This document shows positions 54,901 through 62,484 of a stretch of 64,000 nt of DNA, one piece after another. Position numbers and translations under genes: made by a program. The notes under the pieces were generated by a model. The model saw nothing but the letters and a program-made list of their open reading frames with translations. It was not told where the DNA came from and made no database searches. The stretch is from NCBI RefSeq assembly GCF_000010305.1, contig NC_012489.1:1364001-1428000 (forward strand), written 5' to 3'. The DNA is from Gemmatimonas aurantiaca T-27. Lineage in GTDB: Bacteria; Gemmatimonadota; Gemmatimonadetes; Gemmatimonadales; Gemmatimonadaceae. Numbering within the stretch: the first letter of the stretch is position 1; each line of letters starts with the position of its first letter.

Positions 54901-55965
54901 TCAGCGGCCGCGGAAGACGATGCGGCGAAACAAGGGCGCGCCCCGGTCAGCCTGGAAGCGGGCCAGGTACACCCCTGGCGCGACAGTCCGCCCATCGGAG
55001 GCCGTGCCGTTCCACACGAATCGGCCATCACAATTGCTGTTGCCACCGGCCACGCCCCGGCCATAACGGCCGGCTTCGAAGCGCGAGGTGCCGGACTCAC
55101 CGGGTACGATGGCGCGCACGAGGTTACCCCGCAGGTCCAGGATATCGAGCTTGACGTTGGCGCCCGGCTCCTTCACATCGAACCAGAAGCAGGTGTCGAA
55201 TGACGTCGCCGATGGGAAGGGATTGGGAAAATTCTGGAAGAGCAGCGTCGTCGTGGGAACCAACTGATCGGTGATCACGATGGAGCCGAGGTTCATCACC
55301 TTGTAGGACGCGCCATTCGGCAGCCATGCGCGCACGGACCAGCGATACGACGTATTGGCTTGAAGGTCGGTCGCCGGTCGAAAGGTCGTTTCCGTCAGGC
55401 CACTGACACCCAGCTTCGGTTCGTTTTCATTCTCCAGTACTTCGATGTCATAGCGCCATGGGCCAATGAGTGGCGTGACCTCGGGGCTGTGCCACTTGAA
55501 CAACGGCCGACGGATGTCGAGCGGATTGCCGCTGGGCGAGTTGAGCGTGTCCAGTGTCACCCAGGCCGGAACGGCTTTCGGGCCAATCGGCGCCGATTCG
55601 AAGACGAGGCCGGCCAGTGCTCGCACGCGAGCACGCCAATACACCGCGGACACCGGCGGCAGGGGACGTGTCACCTGGATGGTGAACGACGTATCCATCG
55701 ACGTGAACGTGCTGTCGAGCACCAGTCCGATGAAGTCCGACGATGTCGATACCTGAAACGTGATTTGCAGCGGACGTGCCGGTCCGAGCCCCACGGCCAG
55801 GAAGTTGATGGCCGGCGTGACCGTCGTGAGCAACGTTTCCCGCGGACCCTCCAGGAAGATCCCCTGCGCATCCAGCGCCCGTGGCGCCAACGCAGGAACG
55901 ACAAGCCCCGCCACCAGAAGCAGCAGGGCCTTCGTCACACGCCGCAGCCACGCCGCCGCCGTCAT
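54901..55965 (-). CDS. Secreted protein with C-terminal FlgD/T9SS-type sorting-like domain
   Basis: 354 aa. A signal peptide (about 13-34) is followed by two fibronectin-like beta regions (about 45-130 and 140-245, the second with WRYDIEVLENENEPKLG and TSYRWSVRAWLPNG). The C-terminal domain begins TLLFQNFPNPFPSATSF and ends GVYLARFQADRGAPLFRRIV. The pattern of NFPNPF, a central ILDLRGNLVRAIV and a final GVYLxRF-type strand is that of type IX secretion (Por) C-terminal or FlgD-like domains. It suggests transport across the outer membrane and cell-surface attachment. It overlaps the smc stop by 4 nt. T9SS components are not in this window. Confidence 0.8.
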   Translation of the reverse strand: MTAAAWLRRVTKALLLLVAGLVVPALAPRALDAQGIFLEGPRETLLTTVTPAINFLAVGLGPARPLQITFQVSTSSDFIGLVLDSTFTSMDTSFTIQVTRPLPPVSAVYWRARVRALAGLVFESAPIGPKAVPAWVTLDTLNSPSGNPLDIRRPLFKWHSPEVTPLIGPWRYDIEVLENENEPKLGVSGLTETTFRPATDLQANTSYRWSVRAWLPNGASYKVMNLGSIVITDQLVPTTTLLFQNFPNPFPSATSFDTCFWFDVKEPGANVKLDILDLRGNLVRAIVPGESGTSRFEAGRYGRGVAGGNSNCDGRFVWNGTASDGRTVAPGVYLARFQADRGAPLFRRIVFRGR

Positions 55966-58900
55966 GCCGGCAGGGGTTCCGGCTCCGATGAATCGCTGGC
56001 GTCCGGTACATCGTCCACCGAGTCTGCTGGTGCCTCCGCCGAGGTGGTGTTCGATGTCTTCTCGTCCACCGCCGGTCCGTTGCGCAGACGCACGCTGACG
56101 ATGGAGGACACGCCAGGCTCCTGCATCGTGACACCGTACACCGAATCGGCCGCTTCGGAGGTGGTGCGCGGGTTGTGCGTGATCACGATGAACTGGGTTC
56201 GCGACTTGAAGTCGTTCAGCATCTTCACGAAACGCCCGATGTTCTGGTCGTCGAGCGGCGCGTCCACTTCGTCCATGAGGCAGAAGGGGCTCGGCTTGGT
56301 GAGGAAAATGCCGAACAGCAACGACAGCGCGACCAGTGCCCGTTCACCGCTCGAAAGCAGGTGAATACGCTGGGTCTTCTTGCCACGCGGCGAGGCATGT
56401 ACTTCGATATCGCAATCGAGCGGCGCGTCGGGGTTCTCGAGGCGCAGGTCGCACTCGCCACCGCCGAACATCCGCAGGAAGATCTGTCGGAAATTCTCAC
56501 GCACCTGCGAGAACGTCGCCAGGAACAACTCGCGCGCGGTGCTGTCGATTTCGCGGATGGCCTGGTGCAATGACTGCTTGGCCGCCACGAGATCGTTGCG
56601 CTGTGAGGTGAGGAACTCGAGACGACGCTGTTCTTCCTCGTGTTCTTCGATCGCCAGCGGATTCACGGGGCCCAGCTCGTCGAGCGCCGTGCGCAACTGC
56701 GTGGCTTCGACGCGCAGGTCGTCCGTGCTGAGATCCAGCTCTTCGAAGCCGGCCAGCAGATCATCGAGGGAACGCCGCCACTCGGTTTCGAGGCGCTGAC
56801 GGATCGCTTCACGACGTCCCGACAACTCGGTGTGGCGCAACTGCGCACCGTGCAACTGTTCGCCCAGCGCGCTGGCGCGGCGACGGGCTTCGTCGAGTGC
56901 GGTTTCGCAGCCATCCAACGCGGCGTTGGCCGCGGCCACCGCGCGCTCGGCCTCCCCAAGCCGCCCATCGGCATCGGCCAGCGACTTCCGCTCGGTCTCG
57001 AGCTCGGCCCGCCAGGTGTCGAGCTGCGTCACGAGATGCTGGTCGGCATCCGACAACGTCGACAGCTCACGCGCCAACGATTCGAGACGAGCGGCGGCCG
57101 TGCTGTCTTCTTCCGACAAACGCTTTTCGCGATCGATGGCCACCGACAGACGCGCCTGCGCCTGGGCCTGCGCCACCTGCCAGGTGGCACGCGCTTCACG
57201 CGCCTGCTCCTGCTCACGCTCGGCAATCGACAAGGCCTCACGTGCCTGATCGATGTCGCTGTCGGCCTCTCCGGCCCGTGCATGCAGTACATCGGCCTGC
57301 TGCGCGAGCTGCTGCATGCGCTGCTCGAGTTCCTGCAAGCGCGAAACCAGTCGCTCGGCCAGTGCACTGCTTTGTGCGAGCTCCCGCTCGGCGCGTTCGC
57401 GACGCCGCTCCACTTCCTGCTGAACTTCGGTGGCGCGGCGTGCTTCCTGCTGCGCACGATTGTGGCCTTCGGTGGCCGCCTGCTGCGCCCGTTCGGCTTC
57501 GCCAAGGGCCAAACGCGCCGCTTCGGCGGTCAGTGCCGCTTCATCGCGCCGGGCATCGGCGGCGGCCAGGTCCGACTCGAGACGATTGAGTTCGGCGCGG
57601 CGCTGCAGTGGGCCGGGGCCCGTTGCCGTACCAGGCAGAAACACAGCGCCGTGTTCGTCCACGAACGCTTCGCCGCTGTCCACCGCGCGGACCTTGCCGA
57701 GCAACGCCCGCACCCAGCGCGACGTGGGGCCACTGGCCTGCACGCTGCCAGCGAGCGCGCCGTCATCGGCACCGAGTTCCGTGACCACATCGAGCGGCAG
57801 CAGCAGCAGGGGACCAGGCTGCGTTTCCGTGTGCCAGCGACGCACCGCCGCCGCCGCATCGGCATCACGCACCACGATCGCGTGCATGGTGGCGCCGAGA
57901 TACCGCTCCACGAGACGCGCCGCGTCACCATCCGCGGTGACGAAGTCAGTGAGCGGCCCCAATACCGCGCCTTCCCCGAAGCGCTCACGTTCCTTGAGCA
58001 GCTTCGCGCTCGATGGCGCCAGACCCACACGCTCACGTTCGAGCGCGGCCAGCGCGTTCATGCGCGCTTCGAGCTCGGTGCGCAGCTCCACGGCGCTGGC
58101 GAGCGCACTGCGTGATTCCGCGTCGGCAATACGCGCCGTGGCGGCAGCCAGACGGGCGCCCTCGAGATCGTCGAGTGCCTCCTGTGCGGCCAAACGCGAC
58201 GTTTCCACTTGATCGCGCGCGGCCAGCAGTTCGCGTTCGATGGTGTCCAACGTATCGGCCAGCGTCTGCCGTTCCAGTTCGAGCGCATCACGGCGCTGTT
58301 CTGTTTCGGTCTGCTCGCGCGCGGCACTGTCGCGGTCGAGTTCCAGGCGACGGGCCTGATCGCGATGCTCACGCACCTGGCGCTCGAGCTGGTCGAGCAC
58401 CGAACGTTCCCGCTGCACACCCTCACGCGCCGTCTGTTCGGCGGTCAGACGTTCCTGCAGCGCTTCACCGGCATCGCGCAGATCCTGCTCGAGCGTCGTG
58501 CGATCGGTGGCCGCACGCTCACGGTCTTCGCGCAGGCGACGGCCAAACGCTTCGTTTTCCTTGCGTTCTTCTTCGGCCCGCTCGCGACGCATGGTCGTGC
58601 TGCGCTGCCGTTCTTCCGACACGGCCAGTTCGCGCTCGAGCTTTTGCGTGCGGTCGCGCTGTTCGCTCGCCAGACGCGCCAACTCCAGGCGGCTCGCTTC
58701 CGCGGTGGAACGTGCAACATGGGCTTCTTCGCGCTGCAGTTCGGCACCGGCAATGGCTTCTTCCGATCCCGGCACATCTTCGCGCAAGGTGATCAGGCGA
58801 CCATCGAGCGCTTCGAGTTCGTCGCGCCAGGCGGCCATTTCGCGCGTGGCCAGCGAGATCTCCACCTGGAACCGGCGCGACGTGAGCTCGGCATGGCGCT

Positions 58901-59537
58901 CCGCACGACGACGCTGACGCGCCAGCGAACGCACCTGGCTCTGCACTTCCGCAATGAGATCGTCGAGACGCGCGAGATCGACCGTGGTCTCCTCGAGGCG
59001 ACGTTCGGCGCTGCGGCGACGGTCCCGATACAAGCCTACGCCCGCTGCTTCTTCGAACAGCTCGCGACGATCATCCGGTCGATCGGAGAGCAGGGCATCG
59101 ATCATCTTGCTTTCGATGACCACACCCGAGTCGGCACCGAGGCCGGTGCCACGCACCAGATCCTGAATGTCGCGCAGACGGCACGGCGCGCGGTTGAGCA
59201 GGTACTCGCTTTCGCCCGAACGCAGCAGGCGCCGCGTGATCACCACTTCCTTGAACGGGACGGGCAGCTCGCCTTCGGTGTTGTCGAAGTGCAGCGAGAC
59301 TTCGGCCATGTTCACGGCCTTGCGCGCGGACGAGCCGTGGAAGATGACGTCTTCCATCTTTGCGCCACGCATCGCGCGCGCGCGCTGCTCGCCGAGCACC
59401 CACCGCACGGCATCGGACACGTTCGACTTGCCGGACCCATTGGGTCCGACGATGGCCGTCACACCTTTTTCGAACACAAACTCCAGGTGATCGGCAAAGG
59501 CTTTGAAGCCATGGACTTCGAGCTTCGTCAAACGCAC
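55962..59537 (-). CDS. smc: Chromosome segregation protein SMC
   Basis: 1191 aa, full length. N-terminal head: VGPNGSGKSNVSDAVRWVLGE (Walker A). Two long coiled coils (about 165-500 and 670-1010) flank a hinge (about 515-660, VLGPLTDFVTADGDAARLVERYLGA). C-terminal head: ABC signature LLSSGERALVALSLLFGIFL and Walker B in FCLMDEVDAPLDD. The GTG start shares one base with the upstream stop (TAGTG), and the stop overlaps the next gene by 4 nt. SMC organises and segregates chromosomes with ScpA and ScpB, which are not here. The two genes ahead of it encode SPOR-domain envelope proteins, an unusual coupling. Confidence 0.97.
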   Translation of the reverse strand: MRLTKLEVHGFKAFADHLEFVFEKGVTAIVGPNGSGKSNVSDAVRWVLGEQRARAMRGAKMEDVIFHGSSARKAVNMAEVSLHFDNTEGELPVPFKEVVITRRLLRSGESEYLLNRAPCRLRDIQDLVRGTGLGADSGVVIESKMIDALLSDRPDDRRELFEEAAGVGLYRDRRRSAERRLEETTVDLARLDDLIAEVQSQVRSLARQRRRAERHAELTSRRFQVEISLATREMAAWRDELEALDGRLITLREDVPGSEEAIAGAELQREEAHVARSTAEASRLELARLASEQRDRTQKLERELAVSEERQRSTTMRRERAEEERKENEAFGRRLREDRERAATDRTTLEQDLRDAGEALQERLTAEQTAREGVQRERSVLDQLERQVREHRDQARRLELDRDSAAREQTETEQRRDALELERQTLADTLDTIERELLAARDQVETSRLAAQEALDDLEGARLAAATARIADAESRSALASAVELRTELEARMNALAALERERVGLAPSSAKLLKERERFGEGAVLGPLTDFVTADGDAARLVERYLGATMHAIVVRDADAAAAVRRWHTETQPGPLLLLPLDVVTELGADDGALAGSVQASGPTSRWVRALLGKVRAVDSGEAFVDEHGAVFLPGTATGPGPLQRRAELNRLESDLAAADARRDEAALTAEAARLALGEAERAQQAATEGHNRAQQEARRATEVQQEVERRRERAERELAQSSALAERLVSRLQELEQRMQQLAQQADVLHARAGEADSDIDQAREALSIAEREQEQAREARATWQVAQAQAQARLSVAIDREKRLSEEDSTAAARLESLARELSTLSDADQHLVTQLDTWRAELETERKSLADADGRLGEAERAVAAANAALDGCETALDEARRRASALGEQLHGAQLRHTELSGRREAIRQRLETEWRRSLDDLLAGFEELDLSTDDLRVEATQLRTALDELGPVNPLAIEEHEEEQRRLEFLTSQRNDLVAAKQSLHQAIREIDSTARELFLATFSQVRENFRQIFLRMFGGGECDLRLENPDAPLDCDIEVHASPRGKKTQRIHLLSSGERALVALSLLFGIFLTKPSPFCLMDEVDAPLDDQNIGRFVKMLNDFKSRTQFIVITHNPRTTSEAADSVYGVTMQEPGVSSIVSVRLRNGPAVDEKTSNTTSAEAPADSVDDVPDASDSSEPEPLPA

Positions 59538-60922
59538 TAGAACCCTCTCCCCGTTCGATATGCCAGCACAGGCGCCACGCCGACGGCGCGCAAGGAATCC
59601 GCAAGCGCCATAGCCTGCGTCGGTGATTCGAACGCGCCGGTGTACACCGACGCACTGCCGTCCGCCTGACGGAGTGCGTAGGCCATGATGCCCCGCGTGC
59701 TCAACGCCGCCAGACGTGCCGACACCAGCGCTGGTGTCACACGCGTCTCGAGGCGCAATGCAAACGGCACGGAGACGATGCTCCCCGCGCCAATGATCTT
59801 TTCACTGCGCAGGCGTGCCAGCAGCGCCTCCGCTTCGGGTCGGGACGCGGAGGCGCCAACGGTCACCCGGAACCACTGTTCGCCACTCTCCACCACCGGC
59901 GACAACGCCACGGCTTCCAGCGCCCGGACCTTGCTGTCGGGCATGGCGGCCGCGCGTGTATTCGCGGTGGCGAAGTAGATCGCATAGCGTGCCGCCACCG
60001 TACTGTCGGACAGATTGTCCACCGGCAGCGGCGGTGAGACCGGCGCCACGGACGAATCCAGTGGCACCACACCACTGTCCGATACGGGCGTCTGTCCCGG
60101 CGCGGTGGAATCGGGGCGCAACGCACTGTCCATCGGCGTCGGCGGCACCACGGTGGCAGCGCTGTCGGGTGCAACACGGCCCAGCAGAGCGCGTACGGGC
60201 GCCGGAAGCTGGGTCAACATCTGTGGCCACATGGCGCCAATGCCGATGGCCACGGCGCCCAGCACCAGCAGCAACGCGAGGATACGGTTGCGACGGCTGA
60301 CCACGTCCACCTGCGCAGCTTCCCGTGCACGACGCGCGCTCTCGCGCTCAGGCGGCGGAGTGGGTTCCGGTTGCGGTGGTGGTGGAGCCGGCGGTGCCAG
60401 CAACGGGACACCAGGAGGCGTCGGAAACGCCGAATCTCCAGTGGGCATCAACGCGCCCATGAAGCCACAGAGCTCGGCAAACCCCGCGGTGGAAGGACGT
60501 GCCACCACGATCAGCAGTGCGCCGACCTGATGGAAACCGGCGGCCAGACGACGCCAGCGATCGTTGGCGTACACGGACTCATGATCCACCGGCTCGGTGC
60601 CGCTGGGCATGACGAACACGTTCTCCGCATCCCGCATCGGGCGCGCAATCTTGTTGAGCGACACCCCATACAAAAAACTGTCGGCGATACCGTGCGGATC
60701 ATCGCCAGTGAGCAGCGCTTCCAGCGCCGGCGATTCACCCAGCAGATCCGCGATCGCCACACGCCGTCGCTGTCCCTGCGTGCGCGCCACACCGATCGCG
60801 ACCTGCGTGGACACCGCCGGATCGTTGGCCGCAATCACCACCGCGCACACACTGTCCAGCAGCGGCGCGAGTCGGCGACCCTCCAATTCCCACTTCTCCG
60901 GAATCAACCCCGGACCACTCAT
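59537..60922 (-). CDS. Membrane protein with degenerate ParA/CpsD-like N-terminus and two SPOR-like repeats
   Basis: 461 aa from ATG 60922, which overlaps the upstream stop by 4 nt. The N-terminal part (about 15-150) follows a ParA/MinD/CpsD pattern: an opening strand VCAVVIAA, IADLLGESPALEALL, VFVMPSGTEPVDH and ALLIVVARPSTAG. The Walker A lysines and glycines are missing (AANDPAVSTQ), so ATP hydrolysis is unlikely. A Pro-rich linker (about 172-192), one TM helix (about 210-230), a Pro/Ser/Thr/Asp-rich spacer and two SPOR-like repeats (WFRVTVGASASRPEAEALLA and SVYTGAFESPTQAMALADSL) complete it. SPOR domains bind denuded septal peptidoglycan. It therefore would span the membrane from a cytoplasmic pseudo-ATPase to the septum. 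It is coupled to smc (TAGTG). Confidence 0.85.
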   Translation of the reverse strand: MSGPGLIPEKWELEGRRLAPLLDSVCAVVIAANDPAVSTQVAIGVARTQGQRRRVAIADLLGESPALEALLTGDDPHGIADSFLYGVSLNKIARPMRDAENVFVMPSGTEPVDHESVYANDRWRRLAAGFHQVGALLIVVARPSTAGFAELCGFMGALMPTGDSAFPTPPGVPLLAPPAPPPPQPEPTPPPERESARRAREAAQVDVVSRRNRILALLLVLGAVAIGIGAMWPQMLTQLPAPVRALLGRVAPDSAATVVPPTPMDSALRPDSTAPGQTPVSDSGVVPLDSSVAPVSPPLPVDNLSDSTVAARYAIYFATANTRAAAMPDSKVRALEAVALSPVVESGEQWFRVTVGASASRPEAEALLARLRSEKIIGAGSIVSVPFALRLETRVTPALVSARLAALSTRGIMAYALRQADGSASVYTGAFESPTQAMALADSLRAVGVAPVLAYRTGRGF

Positions 60923-62484
60923 GGTGCGCCCTCGAAGATCCAATAATTCTGTCCTGCCTGTTTGCCCACACGCTCGGCTTCGGCGCGTGTGGGGAACGGG
61001 CCGAGGACGACTCGATACACCGTGGTGCCATCACGATCAGTGGTCGTGATACGTGGCACGAGACCATCCACACGAATGCGCCCGGCCAACGCGCGTGCCT
61101 GGCGTTCATCGAGCAGTGCGGCAAATGACACCGTGAACGTGGACGCCACCGCCGGTGCGGTTGGCGCGGTCGAATCACCACGGGCGGCCCCTGTCGTGTC
61201 GGGAGCGGTGACTGCTCCTCCGGTCGCGGACACGCTGGTGTCCCGCGGCGCACTGTTGCGGAACTGCACGGGCTGATCGAGACCAGCCGCACGGGGACGC
61301 AGACCGTTCCAACGCAACGTGTGCCAGAACTGTTTGGCGCCGCCTTCGATGGTGCGCATATCGGCCAAGGAAGACGGATGCGCGAGCACGACATCATCGC
61401 CCCGCGTGATGGCAATCGATCCATCGGCCATCACGAGTGGCAGGTCGGCGCGCCATTCGCTGCGCACCACACCAATGACGGCATCACCGCCCAGGCTGAC
61501 CACATACACGGAGTCACCCGCGCCACGCGCCAGCAACATGCGTCCCATCGGATCCATGCGCAGCGCGCTGGCCGGTGAGGGCAGGCGGATGCGACCGGTG
61601 ACACCCTCCTCGAACCGATCGACGATACGCAGCACCGATTCATCTTCCAGCGCCACGAACAGACGGTCGCCACTCGGCGTGGCCGCGATCGCCATCACCG
61701 GATCGCCCATGTCCACGTTGAGCGCGATACCGAGGTCGCGCGTACGAATCGCGATCACGTGTTCATCGGCCGCGAAGTACACACGGTCGCCCACGGTCCC
61801 TGCGGTGGCGCTGATCGTACGCCGGATGGTTTCCACTTCTCCGGACGCCTTGATCGACACGCTGTCCGACACCGCCTGATTGGGAGGGCGTACCCGTCGC
61901 ACCTGTACATCGTTGTCTTCCGCGCCGATCAGGATCACCGACCCATCGGGTTGCGAAAAGAGCGCGTCGACGGGATGGATGGGGCGATAACGCCAGTCGC
62001 TGCCACTCGGCGTATATCGCGTGACCTCACCACTGCGGGTCAAACCATAGATCGCCCCACCGTCCGCCGACACGAGAGACCGTACGGTGTCGGCACGCGA
62101 CGTGGTGACCGTCCCCAGGCGCAAGTCGATGCGGACCGGACTGCCCCCGGTATCGATCGCGGCGAGATACCCGTCCTCCGCGCCAAACGCGATGACTTCG
62201 GTGAGGGGCGGGACGCGTGACGCCGAGCGCCAGATCGTCGTATCGAGGGCCGGGTAGCGGACAGCCGTCAGGATGCCGCCGTCTCTCGACAGCCGCAGCA
62301 CCAGGGGGTCAGGGCCACCGGGGATAGTGGGGGCGGCGTCGGCTCCGGCAGGGCGGGACGAGCGATCGGCACAGCCGCCGGCAACACCGCACGCGAGGAG
62401 CACGAGCGCCGACGCGAGAAGCGTGCGCACGGGGGTAAAGTACCCGACCGGGGACGGTGGAGGGAGGGGCTGACGGTCAGGCAT
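60919..62484 (-). CDS. Lipoprotein with beta-propeller and C-terminal SPOR-like domain
   Basis: 521 aa from ATG 62484; the longer frame runs antisense across the sigma factor gene and is rejected. A TATGCT box exactly 6 nt upstream supports the start. The lipobox is GVAGGCAD. Residues about 50-370 form WD/PQQ-like propeller blades (GEVTRYTPSGSDWRYRPI, PSGDRLFVALEDESVLRI, GRMLLARGAGDSVYVVSLGG). A Thr/Ala/Pro-rich linker precedes a SPOR-like domain (about 440-520) with FTVSFAALLDERQARALAGR and TVYRVVLGPFPTRAEAERVG. It probably sits in the periplasm at sites of cell-wall remodelling. It is the first gene of the smc operon. Confidence 0.85.
   Translation of the reverse strand: MPDRQPLPPPSPVGYFTPVRTLLASALVLLACGVAGGCADRSSRPAGADAAPTIPGGPDPLVLRLSRDGGILTAVRYPALDTTIWRSASRVPPLTEVIAFGAEDGYLAAIDTGGSPVRIDLRLGTVTTSRADTVRSLVSADGGAIYGLTRSGEVTRYTPSGSDWRYRPIHPVDALFSQPDGSVILIGAEDNDVQVRRVRPPNQAVSDSVSIKASGEVETIRRTISATAGTVGDRVYFAADEHVIAIRTRDLGIALNVDMGDPVMAIAATPSGDRLFVALEDESVLRIVDRFEEGVTGRIRLPSPASALRMDPMGRMLLARGAGDSVYVVSLGGDAVIGVVRSEWRADLPLVMADGSIAITRGDDVVLAHPSSLADMRTIEGGAKQFWHTLRWNGLRPRAAGLDQPVQFRNSAPRDTSVSATGGAVTAPDTTGAARGDSTAPTAPAVASTFTVSFAALLDERQARALAGRIRVDGLVPRITTTDRDGTTVYRVVLGPFPTRAEAERVGKQAGQNYWIFEGAP

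Follow-up and report, generated by a model that had tools for sequence, protein, structure and literature searches.

A BY pseudokinase with a transmembrane helix and two SPOR domains encoded between a propeller-SPOR lipoprotein and smc in Gemmatimonas aurantiaca T-27

Several described systems resemble parts of the locus analyzed here. In gammaproteobacteria, smc occurs in the gene order smc-zipA-ligA, beside the gene of a division protein with one transmembrane (TM) helix; ZipA, encoded downstream of smc, lacks both SPOR and BY-kinase domains, and the literature search retrieved nothing on this gene order. The bacterial condensin itself is usually regarded as a cytoplasmic machine. FtsN and DamX contain, to our knowledge, no BY-kinase-like domain, and neither is encoded with smc. 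BY pseudokinases are represented by EcpK of Myxococcus and HfsB of Caulobacter, which have polysaccharide co-polymerase partners and are considered to work by touching other proteins directly; for EcpK, a scaffold role of this kind has been proposed (PMC12004946). For the BY-kinase CpsD of Streptococcus pneumoniae, binding to ParB and an effect on chromosome segregation have been reported (PMC4574921). Similarly, RocS of streptococci links the chromosome to the membrane and binds ParB (PMC11500499, PMC13042908). For the Gemmatimonadota, a canonical fts set without MinCDE, MipZ, PomZ, MapZ, and SsgAB has been reported, and ParA-like proteins outside parAB have been proposed as division-site candidates (PMC11271474).

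The genome of G. aurantiaca T-27 consists of a single contig of 4,636,964 bases, of which a stretch of 64,000 nucleotides (positions 1,364,001 - 1,428,000; hereafter the window, to which coordinates refer unless a locus is named) was analyzed. Three overlapping genes were located on its minus strand in the order PROP, MID, and SMC, with the overlaps described in a first-pass annotation of the same sequence. PROP and MID overlap by 4 bases, the stop codon TGA of PROP lying within ATGA and the ATG start codon of MID at 60922; MID and SMC overlap by 1 base, the GTG start codon of SMC beginning on the last base of the MID stop codon TAG (TAGTG; 59539 - 59535). A promoter scan, uninformative in itself, gave no sigma-70-like site in the region. 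The first gene, PROP (60919 - 62430), encodes a predicted lipoprotein of 503 amino acids (aa) with a beta-propeller and a C-terminal SPOR domain, in line with the initial description. Its lipobox Cys (LLAC; 62389 - 62391) is conserved in at least 90% of the PROP family, which suggests a start at GTG 62430 rather than at ATG 62484; the latter, possible too, had been taken as the outer boundary of the locus before. The propeller was modelled with about 31 strands in 7 - 8 blades (61312 - 62307; pLDDT mostly >90). Its nearest folds were many unrelated propellers, and nothing was inferred about its function. The SPOR domain (60958 - 61143) was found by Pfam (E = 1.1e-10).

The last gene, SMC (55962 - 59537), encodes a canonical bacterial condensin of 1191 aa, which is full length as annotated (TIGR02168, 864.5 bits versus a cut-off of 567; SMC_N and hinge in Pfam). 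The SMC of Gemmatimonas ends in an acidic tail of about 35 residues (55962 - 56070); of the other families for which a tail could be retrieved, most have a shorter one. A pairing of this tail with MID as a docking element was considered and dropped, as the tails found in other MID-bearing families are shorter and many tails were missing from the comparison. The gene after smc (54901 - 55965) encodes a product with a C-terminal FlgD-like/T9SS-sorting-like Ig domain and is kept beside smc in many Gemmatimonadales. ScpA and ParB are encoded in the genome; another protein of the ParB family is encoded outside the main parB locus (G000:C1:2669204-2669707).

The middle gene, MID (59537 - 60922), encodes a bitopic protein of 461 aa, consisting of a BY pseudokinase domain, a TM helix, a linker, and two SPOR domains. 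The length of 461 aa had been assigned to its N-terminal domain alone, which in fact spans about residues 10 - 183 (60374 - 60895). An AlphaFold model built from 39 sequences contained three confident domains (block pLDDT mostly 84 - 98). The N-terminal half gave no Pfam match above threshold; VpsO was the best fold match of the N-terminal domain (Z 16.8, rmsd 2.8 over 175 residues), followed by Wzc, CapB, Etk, and BceF (Z 12.6 - 15.2), whereas MinD, ParA, and Soj scored below these BY-kinases (Z ~10.6 - 12.2). Similarly, a profile built from the domain in 20 lineages matched BceF (1.3e-11), VpsO (2.8e-11), and Wzc (1.1e-10), and Soj at just 1.4e-4. The domain, described as ParA/CpsD-like in the first-pass annotation, thus has the ParA/MinD/BY-kinase fold, but its closest relatives are BY-kinases and not ParA.

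The reported lack of Walker A residues extends well beyond the window. Indeed, the Walker A P-loop GK[ST] was absent in all 20 aligned MID lineages, as was the deviant Walker A of ParA and MinD (KGGxxK[ST]). Concerning Walker A' (DxD), the first Asp (D59) is invariant and the second unconserved among these lineages. The Walker B strand of MID (e.g. GALLIVVARP) holds no Walker B Asp, and residues 160 - 213, where a C-terminal Tyr cluster would be expected, are free of Tyr. The conserved positions are non-catalytic (GhxDxFLYGxSL and RW; G78, D81, F83, G86, S88, and RW122-123). Loss of the P-loop in every lineage, together with retention of non-catalytic positions, is the pattern expected for a docking domain. 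The N-terminal domain of MID is a degenerate BY-kinase, closer to BY-kinases than to ParA or MinD, and, because it combines BY-kinase fold and homology with missing catalytic motifs, it qualifies, by its sequence and fold, as a BY pseudokinase in the sense applied to EcpK (PMC12004946). It corresponds to a ParA-like protein outside parAB only structurally, as the motifs for the usual ATP binding are missing.

The single TM helix of MID comprises residues 214 - 232 (60227 - 60283) and is preceded by six Lys or Arg residues within 20 residues, which places the N-terminal domain in the cytoplasm, the topology being derived from hydropathy and charge only. Residues 249 - 292 are disordered in the model. 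Both SPOR-like repeats noticed initially fold as SPOR domains in the model, SPOR1 at about residues 311 - 385 (59768 - 59992) and SPOR2 at about residues 386 - 458 (59549 - 59767). Pfam detected SPOR in MID with E = 2.3e-9; SPOR2 alone was sub-threshold (E 0.025), its model showing a confident beta-alpha-beta-beta-alpha-beta fold (block pLDDT mostly 93 - 97), and two SPOR stretches were called by Pfam in several MID relatives. Related SPOR domains in the PDB are those of CwlC, FtsN, and DamX (1uta and 2lfv matched); no match of MID to the FtsN equivalog models or to any other NCBIfam model was obtained. Among the proteins of the genome that pass the Pfam cut-off for SPOR, MID alone is bitopic. 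Besides PROP and MID there is just one such protein, a TPR-SPOR protein of 332 aa encoded next to mutS (G000:C1:4611462-4611671, L001), which has no clear bitopic layout. In one Gemmatimonas relative, MID carries a large insertion between the pseudokinase and SPOR regions, giving 628 aa in total (L033:1495-3381 and L086).

The Gln residue through which SPOR domains contact denuded glycan corresponds to Q270 of RlpA (PMC6895207); it is a binding determinant and not a family definition. At this site, the window encodes Tyr in SPOR1 of MID, Leu in SPOR2, and Ser in the SPOR domain of PROP. Among relatives, Gln was present in 18 of 39 SPOR1 domains of MID and in 23 of 41 SPOR domains of PROP, and it was missing from SPOR2 throughout. 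The beta-3 Arg was retained in nearly all SPOR1 domains of MID and in all SPOR domains of PROP compared. As Gln is replaced in the window and kept in many relatives, glycan targeting is better supported in the relatives than in Gemmatimonas.

Compared with the systems mentioned above, MID shares with EcpK and HfsB a BY-kinase fold without Walker motifs, but the latter proteins stand alone, whereas in MID the kinase-like part is joined to a TM helix and SPOR domains, and MID is encoded with smc. It shares with FtsN and DamX a cytoplasmic N-terminus, one TM helix, a linker, and a C-terminal SPOR domain; unlike these, it has two SPOR domains, the second lacking the key Gln in every relative. Like CpsC/CpsD of S. 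pneumoniae, a membrane-associated BY-kinase system that joins envelope synthesis to the cell cycle (PMC4574921), MID has a BY-kinase-type domain at the membrane. However, the kinase CpsD is active and belongs to capsule synthesis; it carries no SPOR domain, and its gene does not accompany smc. RocS, consisting of a DNA-binding domain, a coiled coil, and an amphipathic helix, is unrelated to MID in architecture. Parts of the system are thus known already. Concerning the combination, the first-pass annotation knew of no such system, and no counterpart was found in the open-access literature searched either, be it for the BY pseudokinase-TM-SPOR architecture, its pairing with a propeller-SPOR lipoprotein, or its coupling to smc, descriptions elsewhere being possible.

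A neighbourhood search, as had been suggested, found the gene order kept throughout the class and, in part, in a sister class. By single-sequence search, MID was found in 47 of 61 genomes (G. aurantiaca T-27 and 60 relatives), and in the loci from these genomes the order PROP-MID-SMC holds wherever the sequence reaches. The overlaps (4 bp for PROP/MID; 1 or 4 bp for MID/SMC) are nearly always kept, across deep divergence. A phylum-wide MID profile matched 164 of 200 genomes, the weak matches being partly to SPOR alone. In an independent set, for which SMC was retrieved with TIGR02168 from 81 genomes, MID lies directly upstream of smc in all 49 genomes that carry both genes on one contig and strand. 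The gap between match ends is at most 60 bp in 44 of these genomes; in the other five, it is occupied by the remainder of the MID frame or is <100 bp. Conservation throughout the class indicates that the PROP-MID-SMC arrangement is not due to chance, and the MID-smc gene order is ancient. In many lineages, DAHP synthase and metallo-hydrolase genes likewise lie downstream of smc, about as well conserved as MID, so that proximity alone is no proof of function. Whether a genome has MID partly governed the choice of loci for this neighbour survey, which makes them a biased sample, the count over 49 genomes being the better figure.

In the sister class, family f10 encodes a protein with a BY-kinase-like domain, a long acidic linker, a TM helix, and two SPOR domains, convergent with smc and 3.9 - 4.4 kb from it. 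This result comes from five loci, in two of which just the C-terminal part of the protein was within reach; no further shared smc neighbour was found there among those tested. It speaks most for a link between MID and SMC, counting as one evolutionary event. The sister class also contains a second TM-2xSPOR protein, fused to an ExeA/GspA-type AAA+ ATPase (PF13401, 5e-27; L138:8682-10610, minus strand, and L139). Its gene adjoins a PilO-like gene, a secretin gene, and uvrC, and the architecture resembles that of DamX/ExeA, which suggests that NTPase domains have been joined to SPOR repeatedly. A single-sequence scan of genome contigs gave no matches. An alignment-based scan returned 63 loci, labelled Gemmatimonadota or unspecifically except for one labelled Candidatus Kuenenia; as it used a single peptide pattern, relatives outside the Gemmatimonadota may have been missed.

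The system is modular across lineages. Several genera of family f2 have lost MID while smc stays, and in ten f2 genomes, picked for missing MID, PROP abuts smc upstream. Some genomes of family f5 lack recognizable SPOR domains in MID, and one of these has the order rpsF-rplI-rsfS-MID-smc, with MID cut down to the pseudokinase domain and TM helix. In the f5 genera g56 and g65, both MID and PROP were lost, leaving rpsF-rplI-rsfS-smc (gene names in both orders read from the sequence). Three genomes of these genera tested hold 0 - 1 SPOR matches (L151, L152, and L153), and the loss of MID, PROP, and nearly all SPOR domains provides a natural experiment on the role of the system. Further, no match to the pseudokinase domain was found in genus g2 (G030 and G161), and MID of G036 lacks SPOR2. 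As MID, PROP, the SPOR domains, and the kinase part are each lost somewhere, no single part is indispensable; some part of the system precedes smc in nearly all lineages sampled.

The gene order, folds, loss of catalytic motifs, predicted topology, and phylum-wide conservation were established by computation. As to the role of the locus, the reading that we tentatively prefer, at somewhat less than an even chance, is that MID acts as an FtsN/DamX-like septal protein whose pseudokinase domain docks the segregation machinery and that, with PROP, may link the septal wall to SMC-ScpAB or ParB. MID would reside in the inner membrane, with its cytoplasmic domain, one TM helix, disordered periplasmic linker, and two SPOR domains; the latter may recognize denuded glycan at the septal wall, a location and binding suggested by the families concerned. 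The cytoplasmic domain probably descends from a BY-kinase/ParA-type ATPase that lost its nucleotide-binding motifs, and the dead kinase domain may serve as a nucleotide-independent protein-docking surface. By analogy, binding by BY-kinase folds has precedents in EcpK with its co-polymerase and in CpsD with ParB. MID would be co-translated with SMC and PROP, the latter adding a SPOR domain on a lipid-anchored propeller. The wall at the constricting septum would in this manner be tied to SMC-ScpAB or ParB, and condensin action and constriction would be coordinated; we infer both the contact of MID with SMC or ParB and the coordination of segregation with division. In a farther-reaching version, which seems unlikely, MID and PROP would form the phylum's own coordination system, the pseudo-ParA/BY-kinase domain holding SMC-ScpAB or ParB-bound origins at the septal wall and helping to set the place and time of division. 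The trans-envelope link between septal wall, membrane, and chromosome via SMC, proposed in the first-pass annotation, came through the three refuting conditions named there (on gene order, the SPOR fold of the repeats, and the fold of the N-terminal domain); it is kept conditional here, since downstream metabolic genes are conserved too, each module can be lost, and the SPOR Gln is absent in the window.

Alternatively, PROP and MID may belong to the divisome or envelope, with MID as the FtsN/DamX equivalent of the phylum, and may be encoded in one cell-cycle operon with smc while making no contact with SMC, the pseudokinase domain docking FtsA, FtsZ, or FtsK, for example. This is quite conceivable, if doubtful: the FtsN-like topology, the SPOR homology to FtsN and DamX, and the absence of another bitopic SPOR protein over threshold from the genome are in agreement with it, as are the unrelated metabolic genes kept in the same gene string and the ability of PROP to abut smc without MID. 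Mere co-expression accounts less well for MID being the only shared neighbour found near smc in the sister class, and for the pseudokinase-TM part remaining beside smc in f5 without recognizable SPOR. A further possibility is constriction or wall remodelling similar to that by Tol-Pal or RlpA, in which PROP on the outer membrane would meet MID of the inner membrane at denuded glycan, the link to SMC being incidental. SPOR domains on both proteins, the overlap of their genes, and the conserved predicted lipoprotein nature of PROP with its propeller, a fold that TolB has as well, would suit such a role. However, PROP was undetected in families f4, f5, f6, and f8, where MID-smc persists, and the large cytoplasmic domain of MID would have no role, making this explanation rather improbable. 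Finally, the pseudokinase domain could partner a polysaccharide co-polymerase, as in EcpK and HfsB, MID then tuning surface polysaccharide export at the septum. Although its nearest relatives in fold and sequence are Wzc, VpsO, CapB, and BceF, and the BY pseudokinases described work on partners of this kind (PMC12004946), this is very improbable, as MID has its own TM helix and SPOR domains and no co-polymerase or Wzx/Wzy gene was noticed in an unsystematic look at the neighbourhoods read.

Given that Min, MipZ, PomZ, and MapZ are reported to be missing from the phylum, MID is a testable candidate for coupling division to the chromosome. It provides a specific ParA-like candidate, with orthologues across the phylum, for the division-site question in Gemmatimonadota. 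As far as the literature searched shows, it would be the first BY-kinase fold fused to SPOR, and, if the preferred reading is true, it would be the first BY pseudokinase in segregation or division rather than in polysaccharide export. A protein joining condensin through the inner membrane to the septal wall would, if true, connect segregation with constriction in a new way.
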